Shown: in pieces, positions 39,958 to 57,601 of the stretch
How the letters are laid out: every line of letters begins with the position of its first letter
Position numbering within the stretch: position 1 is the stretch's first letter
Program-made: the position numbers and the translations under genes
Notes under the pieces: generated by a model
Databases searched by the model: none
Told to the model about the DNA's origin: nothing
Seen by the model: the letters and a program-made list of their open reading frames with translations, nothing else
Source of the DNA: an uncultured Anaerobiospirillum sp.
GTDB taxonomy: Bacteria > Pseudomonadota > Gammaproteobacteria > Enterobacterales > Succinivibrionaceae
Reading direction: 5' to 3'
Assembly: GCA_944390115.1 (NCBI GenBank)
Contig: CALXOW010000016.1
Location: 1 to 59,424, forward strand
Length of the DNA: 59,424 nucleotides

Positions 39958-41172
39958 ATGAAACCGATTGAAAAGTCCCATAAGTTAGATCACGTCTGCT
40001 ACGACATTCGTGGTCGCATTCACCAAGAAGCTTGCCGCATGGAAGATGAAGGTGTGCGCATCTTAAAGCTCAACATCGGCAATCTCGCCACCTTTGGCTT
40101 TGAAGCGCCGGAGGAGGTGATTCGCGACGTGGTCCGCAATCTCCCCAACTCGCAGGGCTACTGCGAATCCAATGGCATTTTCTCGGCTCGTAAGGCAATC
40201 GCCCAGTACTATCAGCAAAAGGGCCTCAAGAATGCCGACGTCGAGGACGTCTATATCGGCAATGGCGTAAGCGAGCTCATCACCACCTCGATGAACGCCC
40301 TGCTCAACAACGGCGACGAGGTCTTAGTTCCAGCTCCAGACTACCCGCTGTGGACGGCTGGTGTCACCCTGGCAGGTGGCCGTGCGGTGCACTATGTATG
40401 CGATGAGGAGCAGGACTGGTTCCCAGATCTTGAAGACATCAAGCGCAAGATCACCCCACGCACGCGTGGTATTGTCATCATCAACCCGAACAATCCAACC
40501 GGTGCAGTCTATAGCACCGAGTTCTTACAGGACTTAATTGAGATCTGCCGTCAGCACGAGCTGATGATCTTCTCGGACGAGATCTACGACAAGATCCTCT
40601 ACGATGACTATGCTCACCGCTCGATCTGCACCTTATGCGACGATCTGCCGATCATCACCTACAACGGCTTATCGAAAGTCTATCGTGCCTGCGGCTTTAG
40701 ACAAGGCTGGATGATTTTGACCGGCCCTAAGGCCAAGATGCGCGGTTATATCGAAGGCATTCGCATGATGATGGCGATGCGTCTGTGCGCCAACGTTCCG
40801 CTCCAGCACGCCATTCAGACCGCCTTAGGTGGCTATCAGAGTATCAACGAGTTAATCGTTCCAGGCGGCCGCTTACACCGTCAGCGCCAAGCCATGTACG
40901 ATCGCTTAAACGCGATCCCAGGCGTCAGCGTCAAGAAGCCATATGGTGCGCTCTACATGTTCCCGAAGCTCGACATCAAGCGCTTCAACATCAAGGACGA
41001 CCAGAAGTTCTGCCTCGACTTACTGCGCCAAGAGAAGATGCTGGTGGTACAAGGCACAGGCTTTAACTGGATTGCTCCAGACCACTTCCGCGTGGTGTTC
41101 TTACCTGACGTCGACGTCATCGACGACGCCTGCAACCGCTTAGAGCACTTCCTCAAGACCTACCACCAGTAG
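39958..41172 (+). CDS. alaA: Glutamate-pyruvate aminotransferase AlaA
   Basis: 404 residues, collinear with E. coli AlaA (405). PLP enzyme making alanine from pyruvate and glutamate. KLNIGNLATFGFEAPEEV, IYIGNGVSELI-like YIGNGVSELITTSM, VPAPDYPLWTAGV, INPNNPTGAVYS, the PLP lysine in NGLSKVYRACGFRQGWM, and ANVPLQHAIQTALGGYQS are diagnostic. The IS605 element ends about 55 nt upstream; a CTCGCC/GGCGAG hairpin at 39932-39949 sits just before the weak ribosome-binding site. Confidence 0.95.
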   Translation: MKPIEKSHKLDHVCYDIRGRIHQEACRMEDEGVRILKLNIGNLATFGFEAPEEVIRDVVRNLPNSQGYCESNGIFSARKAIAQYYQQKGLKNADVEDVYIGNGVSELITTSMNALLNNGDEVLVPAPDYPLWTAGVTLAGGRAVHYVCDEEQDWFPDLEDIKRKITPRTRGIVIINPNNPTGAVYSTEFLQDLIEICRQHELMIFSDEIYDKILYDDYAHRSICTLCDDLPIITYNGLSKVYRACGFRQGWMILTGPKAKMRGYIEGIRMMMAMRLCANVPLQHAIQTALGGYQSINELIVPGGRLHRQRQAMYDRLNAIPGVSVKKPYGALYMFPKLDIKRFNIKDDQKFCLDLLRQEKMLVVQGTGFNWIAPDHFRVVFLPDVDVIDDACNRLEHFLKTYHQ

Positions 41173-41382: not shown

Positions 41383-41478
41383 TTAAGGACGCAATTGCCA
41401 AAGGAGAAAAAGGATTGGACCTGCTATAAGGGCGCACATGATATACGAAATAATGTCAATAGCAGAGATAGAGTCCAT
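41383..41478 (-). CDS. Array peptide A, 31-residue single-span membrane protein
   Basis: Starts MDSISAIDIISYIMCALIAG and ends GPILFLLWQLRP. Acidic N-terminus, one hydrophobic span over residues 5-26, and a C-terminal Arg; the positive-inside rule predicts C-terminus in the cytoplasm. GGAG lies 7 nt before ATG (GGAGTTGTTTTATG). No known family; closest in style to type I toxin peptides or tiny membrane-complex subunits. Confidence 0.7.
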   Translation of the reverse strand: MDSISAIDIISYIMCALIAGPILFLLWQLRP

Positions 41479-41682
41479 AAAACAACTCCATTTGGTGACT
41501 ATGAAACCTACCACAATCCGCTTCAACCTTTAGGCCACACAAGTAAGGTGGGCAGCTGCTACCTGCGCGAACCTTACGCCACACTGCGCCCAGCTCACTT
41601 TCCAAGCTCAAGCGGCAGCCGGTCTAACTGTTGGTCAGCAGTCTTTGGCCTAGAGCCAGCCTGGCTTAGGCTTGCAGCAAGC

Positions 41683-41778
41683 TTAAGGACGGAGGCTCCA
41701 AAGGAGGACGAGAAACGACACTGACACCACAACCGCGATCACCCCGAAAAACGTAAAAATGAAGGTATCCGAATCCAT
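41683..41778 (-). CDS. Array peptide B, 31 residues
   Basis: Starts MDSDTFIFTFFGVIAVVV and ends VLLWSLRP, with S replacing the usual Q. The most diverged hydrophobic core of the SD-class copies. An in-frame ATG directly precedes (41781), with GAGGGGG as ribosome-binding sequence, so the product may have one extra Met. Confidence 0.65.
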   Translation of the reverse strand: MDSDTFIFTFFGVIAVVVSVSFLVLLWSLRP

Positions 41779-41952
41779 CATTGCCCCCTCATTGGCATCT
41801 CAATAACAAACCAAGCGCGGATGCCTCAGCTAAAAGAGCGAACCTTACGCCACACTGCGCCCAGCTCGCTTTCAAGCTCATGCGGCAGCAGGTCTAACTG
41901 GAGACCAGCCATCTTTGGCCTAGAGCCAGCCTGGCTGAGGCTTGAATAAAGC

Positions 41953-42045
41953 CTAAGGGCGTAACTGCCAAATGAGAAAAAGGATTGGACCTGCCACTAA
42001 GACGCCAATGATAGAAAAAATCACATAAATGGTGGTGTCATCCAT
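41953..42045 (-). CDS. Array peptide C, 30 residues
   Basis: Starts MDDTTIYVIFSIIGVLVAGP and ends ILFLIWQLRP. Nearly identical to peptide K except the end (LIWQLRP against LLWQCRP), which suggests recent duplication or gene conversion across 2.1 kb. GGAG is 9 nt before the ATG. Confidence 0.75.
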   Translation of the reverse strand: MDDTTIYVIFSIIGVLVAGPILFLIWQLRP

Positions 42046-42276
42046 GAAAAACAACTCCATTTTAACTAACAAGTCTAGTTTTTTTTTAATCTTGGCAATC
42101 CACAAGCCGCTACTGCCTTTAGGGCACGCAAGCAAGGTGACCAGCCGCTACCTGCGCTAACCTTACGCCACACTGCGCCCAGCTCACTTTCCAAGCTCAA
42201 ACGGCAGCCGGTCTAACTTGAGGCCAGCCATCTTTGGCCTAGAGCCAGCCTGGCTTGGCTTAGGATTGCAGTAAGC

Positions 42277-42372
42277 CTAAGGACGGCACTGCCAAAGCAG
42301 AAACAAGATTGGACCTGCCACTAAGACGCCAATGATAGAGAAAATTATGTAAATAGCGGTATTGGAATCCAT
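42277..42372 (-). CDS. Array peptide D, 31 residues
   Basis: Starts MDSNTAIYIIFSIIGVLVAG and ends PILFLLWQCRP. Shares the IIFSIIGVLVAGPILF core with C and K. GGAGTTGTTTA then ATG. One of five copies with Cys in the WQCR motif. Confidence 0.75.
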   Translation of the reverse strand: MDSNTAIYIIFSIIGVLVAGPILFLLWQCRP

Positions 42373-42598
42373 TAAACAACTCCACTATCAATTAACGAAT
42401 AATGCTTTTTTAACCTTAGCAAACCACAAGTCGCTGTTGTCTTTAGGCCACACAAGCAATGTGACTACGCAATACAACCGGCGCTAACCATACGCCACAC
42501 TGCTCCCAGCTCACTTTTCAAGCACATGTGACAGCCGGTCTAACTGTTTGTCAGCCGCCTTTGGCCTAGAGCCAGCCTGGCTTAGGCTTGAAGGAGGC

Positions 42599-42688
42599 TT
42601 AAGGACGCAATTGCCAAAGGACAAACAAAATTGCCAAAGCAGCCCCAGCGCCAAGAACCGCAAGGATTGTTGGAAAATACTCGACCAC
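42599..42688 (-). CDS. Array peptide E, 29 residues, GTG start
   Basis: Read from GTG at 42688: (M)VEYFPTILAVLGAGAALA then ILFVLWQLRP. The GTG sits exactly 7 nt after GGAG, the same spacing as the ATG of most siblings, which supports this start. The preceding open frame to 42787 lacks family similarity. Confidence 0.65.
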   Translation of the reverse strand: MVEYFPTILAVLGAGAALAILFVLWQLRP

Positions 42689-42768
42689 CTCAAAACTCCC
42701 ATTCGGCAGCAACCTAAGTTGAGCAACCACTCCTGACCGCTTGAGACTGCCATAGCCTTGAATAAAGC

Positions 42769-42864
42769 CTAAGGGCGCAATTGCCACAGCAGAAAAAGGA
42801 TTGACCCTGATGCCACAACAGCAATGCCAATAGCTATTGCATAAAACAATGTGGATTCGTCCAT
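42769..42864 (-). CDS. Array peptide F, 31 residues
   Basis: Starts MDESTLFYAIAIGIAVVASG and ends SILFLLWQLRP. GGAGGAGCTATT precedes the ATG. Its stop is only 80 nt before gene E with no conserved spacer block between, so F and E may share a transcript. Confidence 0.7.
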   Translation of the reverse strand: MDESTLFYAIAIGIAVVASGSILFLLWQLRP

Positions 42865-43040
42865 AATAGCTCCTCCAACTGCGACCTTAACGCAACTAAA
42901 ACAAGGTGACCGCGTTACCGGCGCTAACCTTACGCCACGCTCCGTGCTGCTCGCTTTCTGGATCTCAGGGCAGCAGATCTAAATTGGTTAGATCAGTCTC
43001 TTATCGCCTATAACATACCTGACTCAAGCTTGAAGGAAAC

Positions 43041-43127
43041 CTAAGGACGGCACTGCCAAAGTAGAAACAGAATTGAGCCGGCAACTGATGCTCCTGCAAT
43101 CGCAAGCATTAAAGTATAAACATCCAT
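43041..43127 (-). CDS. Array peptide G, 28 residues, leaderless class
   Basis: Starts MDVYTLMLAIAGASVAGS and ends ILFLLWQCRP. There is no Shine-Dalgarno. Instead TATAAT lies 10 nt before the ATG, in a context shared with gene J (TATAATGTAGTGTACTATGG). It follows gene H by 29 nt, so it could also be read through from H. Confidence 0.7.
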   Translation of the reverse strand: MDVYTLMLAIAGASVAGSILFLLWQCRP

Positions 43128-43156
43128 AGTACACTACATTATAGCAAAAAGCAAAG

Positions 43157-43252
43157 CTAAGAACGACATTGCCAAAGCAAGTATAAAATCGATGCCGACA
43201 ATACAGCAGCGGATCCACCCAATAAAACGTAAACCAAATTTGTATTATCCAT
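43157..43252 (-). CDS. Array peptide H, 31 residues
   Basis: Starts MDNTNLVYVLLGGSAAVLSA and ends SILYLLWQCRS. GGAGTTGTTGT then ATG. Ends in Ser rather than Pro, as do I and J. The downstream stop-codon hairpin is missing or eroded here, where gene G follows directly. Confidence 0.7.
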   Translation of the reverse strand: MDNTNLVYVLLGGSAAVLSASILYLLWQCRS

Positions 43253-43434
43253 ACAACAACTCCATCAAGGAACGGTCAGAATCTCATTAACGGCTAAAGC
43301 GAGGTGACTCAGCTACCGGCGCTAACATGCAACACTCTCAGTCATCTCTCTTTCCAAGCTCACGTGACAGCCGGTCTAACTGGAGGCCAGCCGTCTTTGA
43401 CCTAGATCCAGCCTGACTTAGTCTTAAAGAAAGC

Positions 43435-43527
43435 TTAAGAACGAGACGCCCAAAGAATCAGCAAGATCGTCACAGACATTGCTGCGCCAATAACAGATAG
43501 AATAGTGAGGACAAATGTCTCATCCAT
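43435..43527 (-). CDS. Array peptide I, 30 residues
   Basis: Starts MDETFVLTILSVIGAAMSV and ends TILLILWASRS, the most diverged C-terminus of the set (WASRS). GGAG is 8 nt before the ATG. A hairpin with CTTAGTCTT / AAGCTTAAG arms overlaps its stop. Confidence 0.65.
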   Translation of the reverse strand: MDETFVLTILSVIGAAMSVTILLILWASRS

Positions 43528-43550
43528 GGCAAGAACTCCATTAAGGCTGA

Positions 43551-43707
43551 TTTTTTTTTTTTTGCTCTTGAGAGAGTCTTGGGGAGTGAAGCTGGTGTCG
43601 TAGCAGCAAACAACTCTAAAAATGGATTGAAATCGACCTTTTGCCCACAGGATACCCCTGTTGAACGCGAGGCTCTCCCCCAGACTCTCTCAAGGACCTT
43701 TTTTTTT
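43551..43707 (+). ncRNA. Candidate small RNA inside the array: 20-bp inverted arms with T9 tail
   Basis: Arms at 43567-43586 (CTTGAGAGAGTCTTGGGGAG) and 43675-43694 pair at 19 of 20 positions around an 88-nt loop. A T9 run at 43699-43707 follows on the plus strand, and a T13 run precedes the left arm. The loop contains AAACAACTC (43608-43616), complementary to the GAGTTGTTT of the sORF ribosome-binding sites. No clear promoter was identified. It could equally be a small inserted element or only a terminator. Confidence 0.4.
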
Positions 43708-43814
43708 AGTCCGCACAAGCAAGGTGTCCCGCCGCTACCGGCGCTAACCTTTCCTCCCCATCTTAAGGCAGTGCATCTAACTGGAGGCAATACATTCTTA
43801 GGCTTGAATAAGGC

Positions 43815-43901
43815 CTAAGAACGGCACTGCCACAGCAAATACAACAACGAACCGGCCGCAAACAATCCAGCAACTGCAAGCAACAAAGAAAGAATGTCCA
43901 T
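43815..43901 (-). CDS. Array peptide J, 28 residues, leaderless class
   Basis: Starts MDILSLLLAVAGLFAAGSLL and ends YLLWQCRS. Like gene G it lacks a Shine-Dalgarno and has TATAAT 10 nt before the ATG (TATAATATTGTATACCATGG). Both leaderless-class products are 28 residues, shorter than the others. Confidence 0.7.
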   Translation of the reverse strand: MDILSLLLAVAGLFAAGSLLYLLWQCRS

Positions 43902-44086
43902 GGTATACAATATTATAACAAAGAACGCCTTAATGCAACAAAAGCGAGTGGCTCAGCTACTGACGCTAATCTAGCGCCACGCTGCGCACAGCTCGCTTTC
44001 AAGCAAATGCGGCATCTGGTCTAAGTTGGCCAGACCTACCACCTATGGCAATCGCCAGCCTAACTTAACTTAGGCTTGAAGGAAGC

Positions 44087-44179
44087 CTAAGGGCGGCACT
44101 GCCAAAGCAGGAACAAGATTGGACCTGCCACTAAGACGCCAATGATAGAGAAAATCACATAAATGGTGGTGTCGTCCAT
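44087..44179 (-). CDS. Array peptide K, 30 residues
   Basis: Starts MDDTTIYVIFSIIGVLVAGP and ends ILFLLWQCRP; near-identical to C. GGAGTTGTTTT then ATG. First gene of the array in the direction of transcription, 92 nt after the three-span membrane protein. A CGCAACAT / ATGTTGCG hairpin lies between them at about 44232-44260. Confidence 0.75.
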   Translation of the reverse strand: MDDTTIYVIFSIIGVLVAGPILFLLWQCRP

Positions 44180-44271: not shown

Positions 44272-44793
44272 CTAGTGATCCGAGCGATTCATGGCATTAA
44301 TGAAAAGCCAAAATACCACTACCATAATAAGCCATCGGGCCTCTTTAGCGCAACGAGTAACAGCCTTGTGCATCTTGATTTCAGAGCGCAAGCGCTTCTT
44401 ATTAAGCTGCTCCAGATCATCCTGCTGCCCAGAACCGAGCCCTCTATTACCGAGCCCTCTATTCAAGTCAGCCGATTCAACCGACTCAGCCGACTGGAAA
44501 GCACTGGCAGCACTGGTATTGCCCTTAGACGCATTGTTTGCTGCATTCTTTTTACTCTTCATAAAGGCAAAAGCAAAAACAACGCAAGCAGTAAAGAACA
44601 AAATGGCTTCAACAACCAAGATATAAGCCAAAAGCCCAAATGGCTTCGAGCCCCAATCAATCTCAACCAGCTTCTCAACGCCACTAACCATTGCACCAAA
44701 TAGTGCACCACAGCACACAGCTGAGGTAGCAGCTAAAGACATATTAGGCTGCTCTTCGGCCTTATTTGTCTCATCGGATTCGCCAGACATCAT
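44272..44793 (-). CDS. 173-residue membrane protein upstream of the array, unknown
   Basis: Start placed at the ATGATG at 44793, preceded by GGGGATATC; the open frame reaches 45015 but the extra part looks non-coding. Hydrophobic spans at about residues 18-40 (LAATSAVCCGALFGAMVSGV), 50-75 (GLLAYILVVEAILFFTACVV) and 152-167 (WLIMVVVFWLFINAM), with a polar loop rich in Asn, Ser and Ala and a GLGNRGLGSG repeat. No family recognised. Its position and orientation suggest it could be linked to the peptide array. Confidence 0.55.
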   Translation of the reverse strand: MMSGESDETNKAEEQPNMSLAATSAVCCGALFGAMVSGVEKLVEIDWGSKPFGLLAYILVVEAILFFTACVVFAFAFMKSKKNAANNASKGNTSAASAFQSAESVESADLNRGLGNRGLGSGQQDDLEQLNKKRLRSEIKMHKAVTRCAKEARWLIMVVVFWLFINAMNRSDH

Positions 44794-45050
44794 GATATCC
44801 CCATATTGTCTCACTAAACTCAGCCCAACACCAAGCAAAGCAGGCCTAAATGTTGGGCCACAGCAGCACTGAGGCGTACCGCGTGCCCTGCCGCTAAGCG
44901 GCAGTATGGGGGCATAGCCTGCCCCGTCTGGGCTTAAGGGCCACTCTTCATGACAGCTCCCCGCGTGCTTAGCACGCCCTGCTGTGATGGCATCTGTACT
45001 CACAGCTGCCATCACCAGTCTTAGGTGCGACTATGCCGCACCTTCCCGTG

Positions 45051-48000
45051 CTAGGCCGCGTTAGGGGCCGCAGCTAACTGACCTTGGGCCAGCTCGACCT
45101 TCGAAGCGCCGTCCTGCTCTACCTTACGTGGCGTCTTATTGCCCGCATCAGCGGTGGCCGTACCGCTAGGTGCATTAGCGTCGACAGGGTCAGCACCTTG
45201 GGCCATCATTGGCTCTGGAGCTGATGGATCCGTGCTGAAAGGCTCAGCAGCTGGCATGCTTGGAGCTGGGCTTAGCAAAGCTGCCACTAAGGTCTTGGTG
45301 TAATCCAAGGCCCCCAAGAGAAGTTGCGCCTCGTTGTGTAAGCGCGTCCAGCTTGGCAGTAAGCCTTGCTGCGAGATGTCGCCGCAGTTTTGGCACTTGG
45401 TCTCATCGCTGACGCTATCGTTCAGCGCAGGCTCCTGTGGCTCAGGCTGCAAATCAGGAAGCGGAGCTGGAATGAAGTCCGGCAGATCGCTTGGATCATC
45501 AGGCTCTGGGCTTGGCTCAGGGTCTGGAGTTGGTTCAGGCTCCGGCTCAGGCTCAGGTTCTGGTTCAGGCTCCGGCTCTGGTTCCGGCTCCGGCTCTGGT
45601 TCAGGCTCAGGCTCAGGTTCTGGCTCTGGTTCAGGTTCTGGCTCAGGTTCTGGTTCAGGCTTAGGCTTGATCGTGACCTCAGCTTGCTTAAAGGACACGT
45701 CGTAATTGCTGTTCTCACCGGCCGAACCATTAAGCTTACCGGTCGCCTCGTCGTAATCGAGCTTTAAGCCAAAGTCTTTGATGTTGTCCCCCAGAGCTCC
45801 TACTTCCTCCTTAATGACGTCGTAGTTCTCAATGGTGTCGGCATTTGCTTCGGTGTTGACCTTGCCCTCACCTTCTGTGAACTCTTGGTCCTTGATGACC
45901 AGCTCAATCGGCTTCTTGTGGATTACCAGAGCACCCACACCCTCAAGGCCTTCGCTCCGCTCAGGGAAGTTATCAGGCTTTGCTCCTGCCTCCTGATCCC
46001 AGGTCGCATCGGCGCGGCTGTAGGTGAAATAGAAGTTTTCTCTAAATTTGTCGTTGGCACGATCGGTCAGCTTAAAGGTGTAGGTACCAGCGTCGCTGTA
46101 GTCTTGGCCGAAGTTTTCAGGCGGCGTAAAGTAGGCGTCGAGGTCAAAGCCCTCATTGACCGCATCGGTGAGCGCGCTGTAGTCGTGCGTTGCGTCTTTA
46201 CCTGCGTACATGAAGTTGAAGTCATGCACAAAGTACGGCTTTAAAAAGCCCTTGAGCTGCAACTCACTACCGTCACTATTGCCCACGTAGTACGGGTCAA
46301 CTAAGTAGCTCTCCTGGCCTGCTTCGGCTGCCGCTTGAGCCGCCTCAAAGCTCGTGGCAATGTCCCAGTCCGTGGCCGCAGTATCAAGCGCACCTACCAC
46401 CGGTGTCTTTTGGTCAGGGCCAATCGGCGCCACCACCAGACCGTGCTGATCTAACGAGCCCTGCACCTTACCTGCGACGTGACCATAAGTGATGTGGTCG
46501 CGGTACCAGGCGCTTTCAATGTCCTTAATGCTCGTAGAGCTCAGGTTGACGCTGACATTGGTGAACTTGTTAGCACCTGTGATCTGCCCGGCCAGACCTC
46601 CGACCTCAATCGCGCCCACCTTAATGCTTGCCTCTAAAACATGGGGATCTACAAAGGTAAAGTCCTTAACCTCTACGTTGTGCAAGGTGGTATTGGACAT
46701 CTTGCCTGCCAGCGCGCCGACACTTAAATCCAAGTTATCCGTGTAATATTTATCAATTGACAGATTCAACGTAGAGTCTGCGATCTTGAGGTTAGAAATG
46801 GTCGCGTCCTTAAGCTCAGGGAAGAGCCCATAGGAACCGCTCCCGTTAATTTCGCCTTCGTACTTAATGGTGTTAAAGGCACCATCAAGCTCCAGCCCCG
46901 TTAAATCATGTGCCGCAAGCTTAGTTCGGAGCTCCTCATACTCATCCTCATCCAGATCTAAGTTGTCAACCAGCCAAAACTTAGGATGAGACCAATCGAC
47001 CGGGTTACTGTAAAAACCTTCGGAGGAGATCGCCACCTGGCCTGAGTGGTCGATAAACTCGCCCTCATTAAGCGAGCTGCGTAAAGTCGCATTCTCGCCT
47101 TCAGCCGCACGAAGACCGTTCTCATTCAAGTATGCGCGGAACGTAAGATTACTGTTATCGCTCTTGGCATCAAGCTCACCGCCGATGTCGATACGGTTGG
47201 TGGAGCTGTGTAGCTCAAAGCGCTCCGGCAGACCGCCGCTCACAGTATCACCCGACTGATCCGGCAACATCAAATCATTGAAGTTGTCGATAATGATTTG
47301 GGAGCCATTGACCACCAAATTGTCGGTAGCAATGCGGCCTAATAAACGGACCTTACCCATGCCAGGGGCAAACTCGCCAGACTCTAGGTCCAACTCCTCA
47401 CGGGTAAATTGGTTGGAGAGCTTGAGGTCGTTAATAGACAGAGCAGAGTCGCTCGTATCAGCCAGCTTCAGCAAATCCGAGCTGACCTGCTCTGTGCCCA
47501 GATAGACCTGCTTAAATCCTACGATATCGCCGTAAAGCGTGATGCCATTTGGGTTAATCAGGTAGAAGTTGAGATCAGGTCCGGCCGATGATTTCCTTTT
47601 AATATCACCATGAATCAAAGAGCGTGGGCCGCCCTTGACGATGTTAAGGAAGGAAACCTCCGATTGCTTATTCTGAGAATCAACCGCAAAATACAAGGAA
47701 TGATTAGCTCTCGGATATAAGTCAAAGCTATCCCAGATAACCTTGTAGTTGCTACGATTGCCAAGCCCAGTAATAGTAGCGTCGCTTGCACCAATCTTAT
47801 ATGCTACATTGCTATTGCATGCAGCATTGCCAAGTTGAGGGAAAGCACCATCTGCTTGCGCTGGGGTCAGGGTGGTGGCAGCGGTGAGCACCAGGGCTAA
47901 GGCCATGGAGCTTGCGACCTTACGCGCACAGCGGGTGATGCCTCCGGTGATGCGCTTGGCGATACGGCCGACGAGGCGGCCGGCGCCTTGGATGCAGGCC

Positions 48001-48074
48001 TTAAGCGCACGGGCGATGAAGCCGCTCCGGCGTGGTGGGGTTGAGCCTTTTAGGCTGGATGGTTGCGGTGACAT
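45051..48074 (-). CDS. Two-partner secretion exoprotein (TpsA), haemagglutinin-like adhesin
   Basis: 1007 residues from ATG 48074, preferred because GGAG lies 6 nt upstream; an in-frame ATG at 48185 would add 37 residues. Long basic signal region, then [17 protein letters not shown] cleavage region. The TPS domain (about 75-280) contains [20 protein letters not shown], the canonical NPNGI secretion motif. Beta-helical repeats follow, then an MBG-like domain ([15 protein letters not shown]), about 23 Glu-Pro repeats (45531-45662), and a C-terminus with CQNCG. Secreted through the adjacent TpsB; likely a surface adhesin or exotoxin. Confidence 0.82.
45531..45662 (-). repeat. Hexanucleotide-type repeat coding for (Glu-Pro)n in tpsA
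   Basis: An uninterrupted run of GAACCN/GAGCCN-type codon pairs encoding alternating Glu and Pro. The 6-nt period keeps the frame, so slippage would change spacer length without inactivating the gene. Confidence 0.85.
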
Positions 48075-48207
48075 ATCAGTCTCCAGGGTTTGAGGGTGGA
48101 CCGCAGCGTTTGAGGCTGCACTCTTAGGTGGCGCTAAGCGCATTGCTAAGCGCGGGGTTGGGGAGCACGACACTATGGGTTTCATCTTGGTTGAATCCTA
48201 TTTTTGA

Positions 48208-50172
48208 TTAGAAGGTGTAGCTCAGGGCAAAGGAGATGCGGCCTTCTTTGTCAGCGTAATTCGGGGTCGAGCCGATGCCGTGGCTTAAGTCGAGCTCGGC
48301 ATTGAGGCCGTGACCGTGGTAGCTCAAAGTGATACCGGCGCTGGCGCCACTGTCGCTTGAGTAGATGCGGTCATAGACCTTGGCGTACTCAAGATGCGGG
48401 CTTAAGGTCAGCTCTTCGTAGCTGTCATAGCTGCGGGTGCTGTCGGTGGTGCCGTGCGTGGTGCGCTCATTGGTGTAGAGGCGCAAGTTGAGCGCGTTGC
48501 TCCAGACGATGCCGCTATCGCCCACTAAGGCTGAGCTGGAGTAGGCACGCAGGCCCCGGCTACCGCCTGCTTGCATCTGCTCGGAGCTATCGAGCGCGGT
48601 GTTGGCAAATTGCAGCGTAAGGCCCGTGCTGTAGCTCACGGTGTCGCTCCACCACTGGTTAAAGCCGAGCTCGACGTTGGCTAAGAAGAAGTTCTTTTCC
48701 TCAGTCAGCTCAAACTCGTCATCGCAGTACATGGCGCCATAGGAGAGGCGGCCGCGATAGGAAAAGACGGTGTGATCTTCAGGGTAGGACTTGTAGCCCG
48801 AGAGCTCGGTGTAGCCTGCGATGGAGTGCTTTTGAAACTCGAGATCAAAGGCGCTGAACTCATCGGTCAAGTCGCGATAGCGCAGGCCACTGCGCCACGT
48901 AGTCTTAGCCGTAGCGCTGCGGTAGATTGGCTCCTTGACGTAGAGCTCGCCGTTGTACTCGTGGCCCTTGGCGCCTAACACCTCATAGGCTTGGCTCAGC
49001 TCGTAATTGCTGTAGCAAAAGTCCAGGCCCAAGACCGTCGGGTGCGAGTTGATTGGCAGCTCGTAGGTCAGGCTGTAGTTGTTTTGCTGCTCGTTGGTGC
49101 GGGCGTAAAAGAACGCTAAACGGTCGGCGCTGCCGGTGACGTTGATAAAGTCGGCCATGGCACCAAAGCGATAGCGGCCTGAGCTCTCGGTGCCTTCGTT
49201 ATCGGCAAAAAGCGAGAACTCAAAGTTATCGCGCTGGGGCGCGGCGACCAAATCAAGGTCGTGGTGTAAGCCGTGAACGTCCGTGGCGCTAAACTCACCG
49301 CTTAAGGAAAAGATGCCAAGGTCAGTGAGCTTGAGCAGTTGGTTATTGAGCTTTTCATGCTCAATCGGCAAGCCCACCTGATCGGCTACGCCCCCTAATA
49401 AGTAGTTAAGGTAGCTATCACGGACACCCGAGCTGTTCTCAGTGGAGATGCCATTTAAGGTTGGCGCAGCCACCACCATCGAGAGCACGCCGTCATCGAC
49501 CACCTGCATCGGGAAGTAGGCTTGCGCCCCGATAAAGCCTTGGTCGCGGTAGTAGCGCGTGACCTCGCTTAAAGCCCGCTGTAAGAGCGCGGCGCTGACC
49601 GCGCGCCCACCTAAGGCCGCAAGCTTATCTTGCGCGCCCTGGGTTAAGCTGGCGTGCTCAGGCTCCGTCAGGTACGGTGCGGCGACGAGCTTGATGCCAT
49701 TTAAGGTGCGCGTTTGCTGCTGCGTCCCAACATAAGTAGCCGAAGCCTGAGCGTTGCGCGCAAAGGCGCGGGCGCGCGTTCCAGCCGGAACTTGGGCCAT
49801 CGATGCGCTGGTAGCGGCAGTTAGCTGCGACTCAGTGGCAGCACTTAGGCTCGGAGCGGCACTCTTCTCATTATGAGCCGCGCTACTAAGGCCGGCGCTC
49901 GGTGCGGGGTGCAGCGTGACCTGTTGATCCACGATGGTGAACTTGCTGCGCGCCTCAGCGACGGCGGCCGGGATTGTGGCGGATGCGGCACGAGCGGACG
50001 CGACATTGGCGGATGCGGCACGAGCGGACGCAGCGTTGGCGGACGCGACGTTGGCGGACACGGCACTGGCCTCAGCACCTATTGCGCCTGCCACGGCGCT
50101 GCCGGATAAGAGCGCGGTGGCCAGCAAGGCGGCCCCGGCTCGAGCAAATTTGTAAACGGCGGAAAGTTTCAT
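48208..50172 (-). CDS. Two-partner secretion outer-membrane transporter (TpsB, ShlB/FhaC family)
   Basis: 654 residues. Signal peptide to about residue 28 (LLATALLSGSAVAGA). Ala/Ser repeats (SANVASANAASARAA) and an unstructured stretch follow to about 150, then POTRA-type sequence (LQRALSEVTRYYRDQGFIGAQ and VVDDGVLSMVV), and a 16-strand barrel region ending in FALSYTF, with terminal Phe. QAGGSRGLRAYSSSALVGDSG corresponds to the conserved barrel lid-loop (VRGY-like) motif. Exports the TpsA product encoded immediately downstream. ATG follows AGGAGCAAGCC. Confidence 0.85.
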   Translation of the reverse strand: MKLSAVYKFARAGAALLATALLSGSAVAGAIGAEASAVSANVASANAASARAASANVASARAASATIPAAVAEARSKFTIVDQQVTLHPAPSAGLSSAAHNEKSAAPSLSAATESQLTAATSASMAQVPAGTRARAFARNAQASATYVGTQQQTRTLNGIKLVAAPYLTEPEHASLTQGAQDKLAALGGRAVSAALLQRALSEVTRYYRDQGFIGAQAYFPMQVVDDGVLSMVVAAPTLNGISTENSSGVRDSYLNYLLGGVADQVGLPIEHEKLNNQLLKLTDLGIFSLSGEFSATDVHGLHHDLDLVAAPQRDNFEFSLFADNEGTESSGRYRFGAMADFINVTGSADRLAFFYARTNEQQNNYSLTYELPINSHPTVLGLDFCYSNYELSQAYEVLGAKGHEYNGELYVKEPIYRSATAKTTWRSGLRYRDLTDEFSAFDLEFQKHSIAGYTELSGYKSYPEDHTVFSYRGRLSYGAMYCDDEFELTEEKNFFLANVELGFNQWWSDTVSYSTGLTLQFANTALDSSEQMQAGGSRGLRAYSSSALVGDSGIVWSNALNLRLYTNERTTHGTTDSTRSYDSYEELTLSPHLEYAKVYDRIYSSDSGASAGITLSYHGHGLNAELDLSHGIGSTPNYADKEGRISFALSYTF

Positions 50173-51655: not shown

Positions 51656-54600
51656 TTAGTCCTGGTGCAAGGAGAAGAGATCGTTGAGCTGGCGATCGGA
51701 GAGCTTGCCCAGCCAGCTCTCACCGGCGGTGACCGTGAGATCGGCTAAGTCGCGCTTGCTTTGGATCATCGCATTGATGCGCTCCTCAAAGGTGTTAGCG
51801 CAGATAAAGCGATAGACCTGGACCTTATTGCGCTGGCCGATACGGTAGGCACGATCCGTGGCTTGGTTCTCAACAGCTGGGTTCCACCACAGGTCAAAGT
51901 GAATGACGTTGTTGGCTGCCGTTAAGTTAAGGCCGGTGCCCGCTGCCTTGAGCGAGAGCAGTAAGAAGCGATTGGATGGGTCATTTTGGAAATTGTCGAC
52001 CATATCCATACGCTCCGAGCGCGTGAGACCACCGTAGAGGAAGTCTGGCTTGCGCTCAAAGCGCTCTTCGATCAGATTCTGGAGAATCTTGCCCATCACC
52101 ACTGATTGGGTAAAGATGAGCGCCTTGCCGTTGGCGTCCGTGATGTCCTGCAATAACTCAAACAGACGCTCGACCTTGCCCGAGTCCTCAGGCTGGTACT
52201 TACCCGAGGCATCAAATTGCGCTGGGCTGTTGCAGATCGCCTTGAGCTGCTGGATCAGCTTTAAGACCAAGGCGCGGCGCATATCCGGGTCTTTGCATTG
52301 CTCAATGAAGGACATAGTTTCATTGACCACGGCTTGGTAGATCGCAGCTTGCTGCTGAGTTAAGGTGCAGAACTGATCGGAGGTGAGCTTATCTGGCAGA
52401 TCGGCAATGATCGCCTTGTCGCTCTTTAAGCGGCGCATGATAAAGGGCGCGGTTAAGCGCTTAAAGCGATCGACCGCTGCTGGGTCGTGATTTTCCTCGA
52501 TCGGCTTAGCAAAGTTCTTGTGGAAGGCTTTGGCCGTGCCAAAGAGGCCCCGGTTGGCAAAGTCCAAGATCGAGAAGTACTCGAGCAAGCGGTTCTCAAC
52601 TGGGGTACCGGACATCGCAATGCGGTAGTCGGCCTTGACCTCACGCATCGCCTTGGAGATGGCGGTGGTGATGGTCTTGATCGCCTGAGCCTCGTCGATC
52701 ACCATCACCGAGTACTCATGCTCTGTGATAGTACTCAGGCGCGCGCGGGCCGTACCGTAGGTGGTGACGATGACATCGCACTGACCAAAGCCAAAGTCCT
52801 TAACCAAGCCGTAGTAGGCATGCAGGCTCAAATCAGGGGCAAAGTGCGCGACCTCACGCTGCCAGTTGGTGACAAGCGAGGTTGGCACCACCACTAAGGC
52901 CGGACGCTCCTTGGTGAGCACGCCTTCTTGCTTGAGCTTTAGTAAGGTCGTAATCACTTGCAAGGTCTTACCCAAGCCCATGTCGTCGGCCAAGATCGAG
53001 CCCACATTGATGCGCGAATTGCGCATCAGCCACTCAAAGCCGCGCACCTGGTATGGACGCAAGGTGGCGTTGAGGCCTTCTGGCAGCGCAATCTGCTCTT
53101 CCTTGAGCATGGAGTCTAATTTGTCCTGGACCCCTGACGAAATTAAGACCGGAGTGTCCTCACAGCTGCCGGTTAACAAGGCCTCCATCAAGTCGCCTTG
53201 CGGCACAATGCCATCCTGTAAGCGCTCAAACTTGTGCTGAATCGACATGAGCAGATCAGGATCGGCGTAAACGAAGCGATCGCGGAAGCGCACGATGTTA
53301 CCGGCGTTGGCCAGCAGCATCTTAAACTCAGCTAAGGACAGGGCTTCATCCCCGACGGCCACGCGCCAATTGAAGTGGAGCAAGGAATTGAGCGACATAA
53401 AGCTCTTGGCGTTCTTAAAGAGCTCATTATCCTCGGCCTCAAGCTCCATCACCGTCTTCGGGCCCTCGAGCTTAGTTAAGCTCTTAGGCAGAACCAAGCG
53501 TACGCCCATTAAGCGCAGCGCAGTTTGCGCGGTGTTAATGAGGTCGTAAAGCTCGGTGAGCGGCACAATGGCGACATTGTGGTCGTGGTTTAAGATCTCC
53601 TTTAAGCTTGCGGACAAGGTGGTCAAACGGGCTACCGTGCGCAGGCACTCTTGGCGCACTGGCTCAAAGGCCGGGTGCGAAATGATGTGGCACAGCGAGA
53701 CAAAGCCGGTCTCATCCATACCGCCCACGACCTTTTGGGCCGAGTCTTCAAGCTCAACTCCGCTGTTAGGCTGCAGCCCCGTTTCATAGTCAAAGTCCTC
53801 GTCGTCGAGGGCATCAGGGTCGGCCTCAACCACCTTTGGCGCCGCAGCCTTAGTCGCAGCCGTAGTCGCAGCCGTAGTCTTTACCGCCGCATCGGCCAAG
53901 ACCGCATCTTGGTTTTCAGCCAGGCGCAGCGCGTTGAGCAGGTCTTGCGAAAAGCCCACGAACCCTAACTCGATGCCGATACCACGGTTATTGGCAAAGA
54001 AGGACTCATAGTCGTTGTAGCCTAAGACCGAGTCGCCCCCGCCCTCGTTGTAGTCGTCATCGTAGTCCGCGCGGAAATCGTCACTGGCAAGGGCACGCCC
54101 CGCCACCGAGTCATCGACTGCAGGCTCGGCTTCCTTGATCTGATTTAAGAACTCCATCGACGGCGCAAAGCGCTCGAACTTGTCGATGCGCTGCTGCATC
54201 TTGCGCGCAGACTCACGGGCCTTAGCCACAATCTCGTGCTCTAACTCAAAGAACACGGTATTGAGGTAATTGCCCTGATCGCTCAAGTCAATAAAGCGCA
54301 GTACTGGAGTGTAGGAGCCCAAAGGCTGCGACAGCGGCGCGACCCAAGTCTCAAGGCGCATGCGCAGGCCTTGGTCATCGATGTCGTCGCTGACCACCGG
54401 AACACCCTCGACGTAGAACATGAAGCGCAGCTCTGGAATCGCATGATGGCCTAAGGAGACACACTTAGGATCCAAAGCAAAGCTCCAGGCCACGTAGGAC
54501 TGGATAAACGGTGCTAAGGCGAGCTCACCTAAGAACTGGGGATCGAGATAATACTGACGGTCGCGGCGATAGAACAAGTAATGCTCAAAGCCTTGCAGCG

Positions 54601-57130
54601 CCAGGCCCACTTGGGTCACCAGCGCCTTGACCTCATCGGCGCAGGTCGCTGGCAGCCAGCGGCAGGCCAGCTCGTGCGCGCTATTAACAAAGAGCTGCGG
54701 CATAATGGCGCGTGATTTGACCAGCTGACTTGCGATAAACCAGAGGTAGTACAGGATCTGCACCTCAGCGCGCTCCTTTAAGAGCACCTTGGTGTTCTTA
54801 ATAAAGCCCGAGAACATCTGGTACAGACCCGCAAAGTGATACGAGTTGGTTTGACGCGGCGGCGGCAGGACCGTGAGGCTATTAGGCTGCGGCGAGCCAT
54901 AACGGTCGGTGGTGATAACGTGCATCGGCACGTTCACCTCTAAAATGCCGTTGGTGCTCAAGTAAAAGAGTGGCGGATGGGCAAAGAAGCCGTGCTCAGT
55001 TAAGCTCGTGTTGGAGAAGTTCGGGGCGCACGCAAAGAGATGGCCGTACTCATCAAAGGCCTTACGGCGTGCGGCAGCCTGCGCCAGCGCCACCTGCTCC
55101 GCGCCAGTGAGCACGCCCTCATCATCACTGCTCCCATCACTGCGCCCGCCACTGCGTGCCATAGCACTACCGGCAGCGGCGGCAATGCTGGCGGCATCCG
55201 CAGTCGGCTTTTCGCCCCCAAAGGGATCTTGGCCACGCGTCGCCCAATCGGCGCGGGGCTCATAGTTAGCCATGGAGCCGTCAAAGTCAAAGACCACCAT
55301 ATCGCGGTCCGTGGTGTCCTTAAGCTGCTTGGTGGCAAGCTTGGCGGCAAATTCCACGGTATGGAATACGCGATTGCGCAGATTGCCCTGGGTAAAGCCC
55401 GGCGCCGACTCGGCGAACATATTGCGGATGCTATCGCCGATATCAGCAATCGGCACGTAAATCAGGCGCTCTAAGGCCTCGATGCTACCGCGATAGCGGC
55501 GCACGTCCAAGGACCCAGAAGTAATGTTCTGGGCGGCGAGCACGGATTTGAGCAAGTCCAAGTGATTCTGAGCGCACTGAGCGCGCTCTTCGGCGGCGCG
55601 CAACATCGACTCAGCAGCCTCTGCCTTTTTCTTGCTGCGGCTCTTGGCCTTAGCCGCGACACATTCTTGCGCTAAGGACTCCGCTCCGCGAATAAAGGCC
55701 TCGTGCGCCGAAATCAGCTCATGCACCTCCAGGCCATCGCTGCCCACCGCAGCTGCCGTAGCCGCTGTAGCTGCCGCAGCCTGCTCAGCTAAGACCTGAG
55801 CCTTAGGCTTGCGCCCGCGCCGCTTCGGTGCTTCCTCAGCGACAGCAGGGGTAGTGCTGGTGACGCTTGCCGCAGGCGCGACATCATCCGGCACCACATC
55901 GTCACCGGCGTCGATGGCGTCCAGCTCCGATAAAGCATCAGCCGACAGCGCCGGAGCCTCCTCTTCCACCGGGGTAGCAGCTTCAGGCTCTTGCGGCAAA
56001 TCAGCTGGGTTATAGCCTAAGATGAGCTCAGTGTTGATTACGCTTTGGGCGGCATCATCGTTATTGCGCTCAATCTCAGCGCTTAAAGCCTGGTACTTAG
56101 CTTCCAGCTCTGAAAGCTTGCTCTGAGCTTGGCTTAGCTCTTCTTTTAACTGCGTGCTGTGCTTAGCATTGGCCTCGATTTCATCGATCTTCTCTTGCCA
56201 GAAAGTCATCATCGCCTGGCGCGACGAAGCGGCGCGGATTTTCTGCGCCTTTTGCAGCTGAGCCCGATAGTTTTCGAGGTTGACGCTCTCAGTATCGGCA
56301 AATTCCTGCGCTTCAGCGATCTTAGTCTCCAGCGTCGCAATCTGGCCCTTGAGCACCTCGATCCGCTTTTTGAGCTGAGCGCACTCATCGGCCTTGCTCC
56401 CTGGCTCAAAGGCGACCTCCGCGCGTTCATAGGTGATGAGATCAGGGGCTAAGTACAGCACCTGCGCATCTTGAGCCGCGACCGGCTCTAAGGCCAAGTC
56501 AAAGTTGTACTGGGTGGCAACCTGCGCTAAGTCATGCGGGCGCATCAAGGCATGGCGATAGAGCGCGGCAAAATCAGCGGTCTTAACCTCGTCGGTCATC
56601 TCATCGAAGATGTTGCGGCTCTTAAGCTCAGCATTGAGATCGATGCCCACCAGCTCAAAGATCAAGAACGGATTGGCGTCGATAAGCTCGCTTAGCTTAT
56701 AGATCACCGCCGCGATGTGCTTGCACGGTACGGCAAAATCAGGGCAGGAGCAGCTCATGCCCAGGTCAGTCCACTTACGTGGAAAGAGCAAGATGTCGTG
56801 CTTTAACGCCAAGTCATAAAGCTTAGGGTCAAGCTCACGGTTGGTCAGGGAGGCCACGATCGACAAATCGGCCAAGGCGTCATCCAAGAAGGCCTTTTTC
56901 TTATTCTCCGGCACGCGCTTAAAGGAGAGTTTGATCGTGTAGTAGGAGTAATGACTACCCGACACCGTCGCCTGAATCTTAGCTAGATGCGGGTTAATCA
57001 TGACATCGACCACACGCCCATTGCGCGCGTAAGACAGGCCGCGCGGGATGCGGTTGGCGTGGTCAATTCCGGTTAAGGAATCAAGCCACTTCTTGCCCCA
57101 CCAAGTCGTACCGTATTGCTTTCGCACCAT
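51656..57130 (-). CDS. Giant SWIM-domain SNF2-family helicase-like ATPase
   Basis: 1824 residues from ATG 57130, preceded by GGAAGGTGTGG. A SWIM zinc motif, CSCPDFAVPCKH, at about 127-138 is followed by a coiled coil (about 255-365) and low-complexity Ala/Pro/Glu stretches with an AT-hook-like KRRGRKPKAQ near 440. The C-terminal 450 residues are a complete SNF2 core: DDMGLGKTLQVITTL (Walker A, near 1380), VIDEAQAIK (Walker B), SGTPVENRLLEYFSI, and QATDRAYRIGQRNKVQVYRF (motif VI). SNF2 proteins remodel nucleoprotein complexes; bacterial SWIM-SNF2 proteins are widespread, but substrates are unknown. Twice the usual length. Confidence 0.88.
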   Translation of the reverse strand: MVRKQYGTTWWGKKWLDSLTGIDHANRIPRGLSYARNGRVVDVMINPHLAKIQATVSGSHYSYYTIKLSFKRVPENKKKAFLDDALADLSIVASLTNRELDPKLYDLALKHDILLFPRKWTDLGMSCSCPDFAVPCKHIAAVIYKLSELIDANPFLIFELVGIDLNAELKSRNIFDEMTDEVKTADFAALYRHALMRPHDLAQVATQYNFDLALEPVAAQDAQVLYLAPDLITYERAEVAFEPGSKADECAQLKKRIEVLKGQIATLETKIAEAQEFADTESVNLENYRAQLQKAQKIRAASSRQAMMTFWQEKIDEIEANAKHSTQLKEELSQAQSKLSELEAKYQALSAEIERNNDDAAQSVINTELILGYNPADLPQEPEAATPVEEEAPALSADALSELDAIDAGDDVVPDDVAPAASVTSTTPAVAEEAPKRRGRKPKAQVLAEQAAAATAATAAAVGSDGLEVHELISAHEAFIRGAESLAQECVAAKAKSRSKKKAEAAESMLRAAEERAQCAQNHLDLLKSVLAAQNITSGSLDVRRYRGSIEALERLIYVPIADIGDSIRNMFAESAPGFTQGNLRNRVFHTVEFAAKLATKQLKDTTDRDMVVFDFDGSMANYEPRADWATRGQDPFGGEKPTADAASIAAAAGSAMARSGGRSDGSSDDEGVLTGAEQVALAQAAARRKAFDEYGHLFACAPNFSNTSLTEHGFFAHPPLFYLSTNGILEVNVPMHVITTDRYGSPQPNSLTVLPPPRQTNSYHFAGLYQMFSGFIKNTKVLLKERAEVQILYYLWFIASQLVKSRAIMPQLFVNSAHELACRWLPATCADEVKALVTQVGLALQGFEHYLFYRRDRQYYLDPQFLGELALAPFIQSYVAWSFALDPKCVSLGHHAIPELRFMFYVEGVPVVSDDIDDQGLRMRLETWVAPLSQPLGSYTPVLRFIDLSDQGNYLNTVFFELEHEIVAKARESARKMQQRIDKFERFAPSMEFLNQIKEAEPAVDDSVAGRALASDDFRADYDDDYNEGGGDSVLGYNDYESFFANNRGIGIELGFVGFSQDLLNALRLAENQDAVLADAAVKTTAATTAATKAAAPKVVEADPDALDDEDFDYETGLQPNSGVELEDSAQKVVGGMDETGFVSLCHIISHPAFEPVRQECLRTVARLTTLSASLKEILNHDHNVAIVPLTELYDLINTAQTALRLMGVRLVLPKSLTKLEGPKTVMELEAEDNELFKNAKSFMSLNSLLHFNWRVAVGDEALSLAEFKMLLANAGNIVRFRDRFVYADPDLLMSIQHKFERLQDGIVPQGDLMEALLTGSCEDTPVLISSGVQDKLDSMLKEEQIALPEGLNATLRPYQVRGFEWLMRNSRINVGSILADDMGLGKTLQVITTLLKLKQEGVLTKERPALVVVPTSLVTNWQREVAHFAPDLSLHAYYGLVKDFGFGQCDVIVTTYGTARARLSTITEHEYSVMVIDEAQAIKTITTAISKAMREVKADYRIAMSGTPVENRLLEYFSILDFANRGLFGTAKAFHKNFAKPIEENHDPAAVDRFKRLTAPFIMRRLKSDKAIIADLPDKLTSDQFCTLTQQQAAIYQAVVNETMSFIEQCKDPDMRRALVLKLIQQLKAICNSPAQFDASGKYQPEDSGKVERLFELLQDITDANGKALIFTQSVVMGKILQNLIEERFERKPDFLYGGLTRSERMDMVDNFQNDPSNRFLLLSLKAAGTGLNLTAANNVIHFDLWWNPAVENQATDRAYRIGQRNKVQVYRFICANTFEERINAMIQSKRDLADLTVTAGESWLGKLSDRQLNDLFSLHQD

Positions 57131-57601
57131 GAAACCACACCTTCCAGACAACGAGAAAAGAAAAAAAAAAGAAAAGAGAAAAAATCGAACTGGCGCCGCC
57201 GCGCCGAACCCTGCTTACTCTAGCCTTGAGCGCAGCACGCCCTAACCCGACGCCTTGATCCGGCGCATAGCCCCGGCGCCTTGGGCCGGATCAGCCTGAC
57301 TGCGCCCCCTCAGGCCCCAAAATCTTTAGATACGTCAACGCCTCGCTGCCACCGAAGCGACAGTGAGGCGTTGCCTCAGCGCAGCACCTGCACTTAAAAA
57401 CTCAAAACCGATGGCTCAGACTGCCCATGCATAACTTGCGCTAAGCCAAGCCGCCACGCCGCGTCAGTCACGGCCTGCCGCGTCCCTGAGCAAGGGCGCA
57501 CGCTGAGCGCGCGCAGGCAGTGCGCAGGCTACGGCTGAGCCCAAGTTGCGTCTGAACCAAGCTACGTTTGAGCTGGCGCTACTACTTTTTCTTAGCTACA
57601 G
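57131..57601. other. 470-nt gap between glycosyltransferase and SNF2 genes
   Basis: No gene seen. An A-rich tract (plus strand 57155-57182) precedes the SNF2 gene. The remainder is GC-rich, with short GCCTGA/GCGCAC palindromes and no clear terminator. Confidence 0.4.

Follow-up and report, generated by a model that had tools for sequence, protein, structure and literature searches.

A tandem array of eleven tiny membrane peptides beside a fast-changing protein in an uncultured Anaerobiospirillum

Very small membrane proteins are easily overlooked in genome annotation, and those encoded in tandem are, to our knowledge, mostly type I toxins. CydX, KdpF, MgtR and AcrZ are single-helix helpers or regulators of about 30 to 50 residues, encoded by single genes and acting with a known large partner. 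Here we describe an array of eleven paralogous genes for tiny membrane peptides in a stretch of 59,424 nucleotides (hereafter the window) from an uncultured Anaerobiospirillum sp. (assembly GCA_944390115.1, contig CALXOW010000016.1), whose genome comprises 3.64 Mb on 123 contigs. The array adjoins the gene of a protein that we call X. It resembles CydX, KdpF, MgtR and AcrZ in peptide size, the single helix and our favored mode of action, but differs in its 7 to 11 divergent copies per genome and in that X is a candidate partner. In the FixS/CcoS and CcmD-type proteins, too, W and a basic residue come after a hydrophobic helix; their matches to the array, one member each, were rejected as not significant (E 0.11 for FixS/CcoS, E 0.019 for CcmD-type), and no gene for an oxidase or a cytochrome turned up among the window proteins covered by general scans.

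The closest described systems are Ldr/Rdl and Ibs/Sib of Escherichia coli, which like the array consist of tandem same-strand genes for small single-helix membrane peptides. According to the excerpt of PMC8309996 that deals with these toxins, IbsC has 19 and LdrA 35 residues, and the positive C terminus of the membrane-crossing LdrA is placed in the cytosol, a predicted C-in topology. In the same excerpt, ZorO is a 29-residue hydrophobic peptide that was found through a search for tandemly duplicated small hydrophobic proteins, and its ribosome site is sequestered by a 5' structure. As far as that excerpt goes, ZorO/OrzO shares a hydrophobic peptide of about 30 residues and tandem genes with the array; its 5' sequestration contrasts with a mixed picture at the array, where the region from -15 to +5 is ordinary and the Shine-Dalgarno tetramer is less accessible. 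The array differs from Ldr and Ibs in having no repeated antisense promoter, no significant family match and the neighbor X. The initial annotation had noted that Ldr, Ibs and Fst-like toxins resemble the array in style but lack its motif; size, helix and tandem arrangement are indeed shared with Ldr and Ibs, and no toxin family was matched.

Eleven paralogous genes under purifying selection

The eleven same-strand mini-genes of 28 to 31 residues proposed in the initial annotation were recovered as homologous open reading frames (ORFs) on the minus strand at 41383-44179. When ORFs of 22 to 60 residues with a Shine-Dalgarno motif and a hydrophobic span were listed across the window, 10 of the 15 rows belonged to the array, representing nine distinct genes. 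The genes are as follows.

44087..44179, minus strand: peptide 1, MDDTTIYVIFSIIGVLVAGPILFLLWQCRP; GGAG upstream
43815..43901, minus strand: peptide 2, MDILSLLLAVAGLFAAGSLLYLLWQCRS; close copy in G006
43435..43527, minus strand: peptide 3, MDETFVLTILSVIGAAMSVTILLILWASRS
43157..43252, minus strand: peptide 4, MDNTNLVYVLLGGSAAVLSASILYLLWQCRS; copy in G006
43041..43127, minus strand: peptide 5, MDVYTLMLAIAGASVAGSILFLLWQCRP; copy in G006
42769..42864, minus strand: peptide 6, MDESTLFYAIAIGIAVVASGSILFLLWQLRP
42599..42688, minus strand: peptide 7, MVEYFPTILAVLGAGAALAILFVLWQLRP; GTG start, with GTG and GGAG kept in G006
42277..42372, minus strand: peptide 8, MDSNTAIYIIFSIIGVLVAGPILFLLWQCRP
41953..42045, minus strand: peptide 9, MDDTTIYVIFSIIGVLVAGPILFLIWQLRP; copy in G006
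41683..41778, minus strand: peptide 10, MDSDTFIFTFFGVIAVVVSVSFLVLLWSLRP; an alternative ATG one codon upstream is possible
41383..41478, minus strand: peptide 11, MDSISAIDIISYIMCALIAGPILFLLWQLRP

Here G006 is a second Anaerobiospirillum metagenome-assembled genome, which carries seven further copies. Each array peptide combines an acidic N terminus, an uncharged hydrophobic span of 19 to 25 residues and a C-terminal W-x-x-R. The ending LWQ[LC]R[PS], called near-invariant at first, is exact in 8 of the 11 window peptides, and three copies deviate (LWASRS at 43435, IWQLRP at 41953 and LWSLRP at 41683); all 11 share one L, the W and the R in their C-terminal part. Likewise, the "MD-rich acidic start" stands as an M-D start with a total of one or two acidic residues ahead of the hydrophobic span, but copy 7 has neither ATG nor "MD" and begins with a GTG behind GGAG, as its G006 counterpart does.

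To compare codons, we paired five of the seven G006 copies with one close window copy each and excluded gA and g10, which have no clear single partner (pS 0.43 and pN 0.29 for the pair w10-g10, where pS and pN are the proportions of synonymous and non-synonymous differences); w9 was chosen as the partner of g9, with w1 and w8 about equally close (pS 0.49 and 0.47, pN 0.02 and 0.04, respectively). The five pairs show 26.5 synonymous versus 11.5 non-synonymous differences (pS 0.24, pN 0.035, pN/pS 0.14; Fisher p 2.5e-9, rounded counts), and the differences are distributed 6/4/28 over codon positions 1/2/3. The five other frames of the same DNA contain 3 to 17 stops per frame over the ten sequences, with pN/pS values of 0.25 to 3.6, and the array frame is the sole stop-free frame of the six; it is open in all 18 copies of the two genomes. 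The array ORFs are real protein-coding genes under purifying selection. The selection on the peptide that the initial annotation had argued for is thereby confirmed, also within the C-terminal third, where pS exceeds pN in the five pairs (0.58 and 0.19); the comparison of synonymous and non-synonymous change that it had suggested returned the codon-position bias. Over all pairs of the 18 copies, which are not independent of each other, pN/pS is lowest in the C-terminal part (0.33), intermediate in the N-terminal part (0.48) and highest in the core (0.66). Selection on the protein thus maintains the C terminus, and by this measure the divergent core has been relaxed rather than positively selected.

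All 18 peptides are shorter than 60 residues and have one hydrophobic helix, as judged from hydrophobicity, and their charge pattern is uniform, with -1 or -2 at the N terminus, +1 at the C terminus and a span of 19 to 25 residues. Because of these charges, and according to the established positive-inside rule, we infer an N-out/C-in topology in the inner membrane. Their hydrophobic moments are low (0.07 to 0.20), which speaks against surface-active peptides.

Distribution and recombination of the locus

A profile of the 11 window copies matched three of 57 genomes of the family at E 0.01, namely the window's own genome, G006 with seven hits and G039 with one, the last (E 0.005) being set aside as weak. 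Among 395 genomes of the order, an 18-copy profile gave the own genome plus two weak hits at E 0.001 and the own genome alone at E<=1e-4; among 369 genomes of the class it again gave the own genome alone at E 1e-4. Both sets are samples, G006 is not among their matches, and at most the 20 to 21 best first-look candidates were scored per genome. We set aside a hit in G091 (E 2.7e-4), which has one internal stop and overlaps a 574-residue ORF on the same strand, a hit in G074 (E 9e-4), which overlaps a 924-residue ORF on the same strand, and a weak match of 10 residues in a Persephonella record. The conservation of the frames in relatives thus extends to the G006 array, and otherwise no clear array was seen in the 57 family genomes. 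A clear array and protein X occur in the same 2 of these 57 genomes.

With all 11 window members, Pfam gave no significant family match (best E 0.019); with three of the 11, NCBIfam gave no match and PHROGs none that was significant (best E 0.075). The "new family" of the initial annotation holds within this scope. Rfam had no match at the gathering score over the whole window, searches of viral contigs with the peptides and with X, of plasmids and phages with X and of phages with one peptide returned nothing useful, and solved structures gave no significant match (best E 1 for the peptides and 0.45 for X). Among open-licence PubMed Central papers we found no description of such an array, which is not proof of absence in print. 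The peptide family itself, with 18 copies in two genomes, is well supported.

The array is flanked and interrupted by the following features.

39958..41172, plus strand: class I/II aminotransferase, the convergent neighbor, present in 11 of 11 genomes of the genus
43560..43704, strand not assigned: short mobile element of about 130-145 bp that separates peptides 2 and 3; its inverted ends measure 20 nt
44272..44793, minus strand: protein X, about 173 residues, start chosen by eye
45051..48185, minus strand: TpsA-like exoprotein, the upstream neighbor, with a two-partner secretion (TPS) domain match below the Pfam cut-off and acidic Pro-Glu repeats
48208..50172, minus strand: TpsB transporter (ShlB/FhaC-type)

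The short mobile element has four copies in the genome, the other three lying on contigs C8, C13 and C29 with 96-99% identity. In TpsA, dN/dS between the two species (dN and dS, non-synonymous and synonymous divergence) is about 1.0 over aligned codons 400-600 and 0.06 over codons 800-1000. Upstream of the Tps genes, 51656-57151 encodes a protein of 1831 residues with SWIM and SNF2 helicase domains, which matches the ZorD and DpdE defense models through its helicase part.

The seven G006 copies lie on two contigs in an order different from that of the window; one of these contigs also carries TpsA and X, the other the aminotransferase. Because apparent ends of a single insertion element are seen on both contigs, where the inverted ends match and CTCGCTTTTG is repeated, the G006 array probably has seven copies in total, the first following X and the other six preceding the aminotransferase, as read from the contig ends rather than from an assembly. 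The X-side contig holds two transposase genes; the apparent insertion element (L023:6240-9582 and L022:1-145), itself interrupted by the second transposase gene, splits the array between copies 1 and 2. The content of the TpsA-aminotransferase interval differs among the four genomes in which TpsA is seen next to the aminotransferase: G005 has an AAA-ATPase-like gene there, and G009 a 664-residue protein together with two other small membrane peptides.

We then sought the best partner separately for the 5' flank, the coding segment and the 3' flank of each unit. In slot 1 of G006, a peptide-4-type coding segment is followed by a 3' flank that matches window slot 1 (95% of 105 nt); in the G006 copy g4, the peptide-4 coding segment (94%) is preceded by the 5' flank of peptide 6, unchanged over 45/45 nt; and the last slots of the two genomes have a common 3' flank (93% of 101 nt) with different peptide coding segments. 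A pairwise comparison covered 12 of the 18 units, and 55 of its 66 pairs offered at least 90 aligned flank columns; in 41 of these 55 the flanks resemble each other more closely than the coding parts do, and in the other 14 less closely. Coding segments were swapped between slots by recombination while the flanks stayed put, and the array grew by tandem amplification. Gene conversion may be the source of the intergenic conservation, which is therefore not proof of function. We claim no conserved RNA structure for the 3' flanks: RNAalifold on 11 units gave -15.9 kcal/mol (covariation term +0.43), both sides had changed in 2 of 27 pairs, and single folds of 10 units had z values of -2.2 to +0.3. 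A dyad between X and peptide 1 shows one compensating pair by eye but is not part of the window copy's minimum-energy fold.

Integron cassettes were considered and rejected. The integrase model TIGR02249 exceeded its cut-off in 0 of 11 genomes of the genus, and its partial matches (positions 237-304) in 6 of these 11 genomes have counterparts in 4 of 14 control genomes; moreover, the array genes are paralogues rather than unrelated, and exchanges of segments are seen both upstream and downstream of the coding segment. The G009 pair (L051:600-997) resembles the array in that two single-helix peptides with an MD start are encoded in tandem in the TpsA-aminotransferase interval, with 3' flanks 88% alike and coding parts 67% alike; compared with the array, its differences of 9/5/11 by codon position are alone insufficient to prove coding. 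The repeated 3' flanks of the pair fold well (z -3.0 and -2.0). Homology to the array family, an idea from alignment by eye, was not established: hhalign gave a probability of 6% (P 0.006), and 1143 and 1288 of 5000 shuffles scored as well.

Promoter-like sites and ribosome sites

A simple consensus scan was uninformative, with no site in the ldr stretch and one site in the array region versus 2.5 expected. We therefore rely on a hand-written promoter matrix run with the E. coli ldr and ibs controls, which points to two sense sites.

43912..43941, minus strand: promoter-like site, TTGTTG-18-TATAAT with TG, just before peptide 2
43138..43166, minus strand: promoter-like site, extended -10 with TATAAT, just before peptide 5

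Their scores are 12.3 and 9.3, respectively, and equal those before the G006 counterparts. The matrix found 2 antisense and 9 sense sites in the array, no more than in shuffled sequence (mean 10.2); because the number of sites is not above that of shuffled sequence, the two sense sites rest on their score, place and conservation in G006. Copies 2 and 5 lack a Shine-Dalgarno motif, and TGnTATAAT ends 10 nt before their ATG, a position that would give nearly leaderless messages. A repeated antisense promoter was not found: the matrix gave two scattered plus-strand hits in 3.1 kb of array and two antisense hits in 1.6 kb of G006 contig C95, whereas it found an antisense promoter before each of rdlA, rdlB, rdlC, sibA and sibB. 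This null result covers sigma-70-type promoters at the array, and an RNA encoded elsewhere or another promoter type falls outside its scope.

The predicted accessibility of the region from -15 to +5 is the same in the array (0.41) as in 16 window genes (0.40, p 0.80), while the Shine-Dalgarno tetramer is less accessible in the array (mean 0.19, n=14) than in controls (0.35, n=8; p 0.037), a comparison limited to genes with a Shine-Dalgarno motif, which 14 of the 18 array copies and 8 of the 16 controls have. The starts of the 16 control genes are hand-picked ORF starts, not verified ones. The method did not single out E. coli ldr or ibs either.

Protein X and possible roles of the peptides

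X has two strong hydrophobic segments and, by eye, a shorter C-terminal one, and is 57% identical to its G006 counterpart. Between the two species, X has dS 0.67 and dN 0.31 and TpsA dS 0.24 and dN 0.11, compared with dS values of 0.07 for the aminotransferase, 0.16 for TpsB and 0.22 for an S13 peptidase, whose dN values are 0.001-0.011. The raised dS of X suggests exchange with a diverged allele rather than selection alone. The non-coding gap between TpsA and X (44788-45050, about 260 nt) is nearly identical in both species except for its last 30 bases or so.

From these data we tentatively favor the possibility that the peptides are single-pass inner-membrane, interchangeable partners of X. 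Each peptide would span the inner membrane once, with the W-x-x-R end facing the cytoplasm and the acidic N terminus outside, and would act as an interchangeable small regulator or subunit of X; docking would fall to the conserved C-terminal foot, and specificity to the variable core and N terminus. A changed set of copies in the array would then alter the tuning of X, most likely in the context of a conflict or of the envelope, because X and TpsA change much faster than the other genes compared. We count in its favor that X and a clear array coincide in their distribution, as well as the coding status and purifying selection, the uniform charges, the fast evolution of X, the mosaic units, and promoter sites that are sense rather than antisense. 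The "small subunits of a membrane complex" of the initial annotation would thus gain a candidate partner, absent from that annotation. Several points weigh against this proposal. The co-occurrence concerns two closely related genomes and may merely reflect joint inheritance; 11 and 7 copies are odd for subunits of one complex; X is a candidate by neighborhood and has no family match over a curated cut-off. In addition, the matrix scan gave no sense promoter hit for X in 44700-45060, leaving joint transcription with the array unsupported, and the low Shine-Dalgarno accessibility could mean controlled translation, as of a harmful product, which slightly lowered our estimate.

Such a harmful product is what a type I-like toxin array would encode, in which the peptides damage the membrane when translated and are silenced by an RNA antitoxin in the style of Ldr, Ibs or Zor. 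Size, the single hydrophobic helix, tandem copies, narrow distribution and the predicted C-in topology all fit, as do the less accessible Shine-Dalgarno tetramers and the 3' flanks conserved among units. However, the antisense promoter expected at repeated positions was not found although the same matrix finds five at the ldr and ibs loci, the -15 to +5 region is as accessible as in window genes, and the database searches described above gave no significant similarity to a known toxin family. The toxin reading of the initial annotation is so far not supported in its type I form; we regard it as rather doubtful, and would prefer partners of X to it only modestly. Alternatively, the antidote may be a protein: the peptides would be membrane-active with X as immunity or control protein, or X would be an effector restrained by the peptides. 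This accounts for the co-occurrence and for the fast evolution of X, and the G006 X has weak PADLOC-DB matches to the 2TM effector model (E 6e-4) and PycTM (E 0.002). But two-helix proteins match each other easily, and the window X matches none of these families at E 0.1, so the 2TM effector match is not common to both orthologues; general scans showed no nucleotide cyclase among the window proteins scanned, with no search aimed at cyclases. We consider this arrangement unlikely.

A broader and still less likely proposal is a recombining repertoire locus, in which peptides shuffled between fixed flanks would supply variable partners to a hypervariable effector X, forming a diversity-generating defense or competition system, with the G009 pair as a second lineage of the same strategy. 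The peptides might instead be accessories of the adjoining two-partner secretion system, which lies next to them on the same strand and whose TpsA also varies; yet TpsA relatives occur in 11 of 11 genus genomes and a clear array in 2, and G005 and G009 hold other genes in the same interval, which makes this role improbable. Least probable of all is an amplification that is selfish or neutral, in which repeats would drive the array, recombination between similar flanks would keep it, and the peptides would have no important role. The greater likeness of flanks than of coding parts would agree with it, and the short mobile element in the window and the insertion sequence in G006 were tolerated, but it is disfavored by the codon test, with its low pN/pS between species, and by the frames open in every copy.

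The peptides form a family of 18 copies in two genomes, for which no repeated antisense promoter was found, whose coding segments are shuffled between fixed flanks, and which adjoins a fast-changing membrane protein. The family allows a direct test of whether such peptides tune a partner protein rather than harm the cell.

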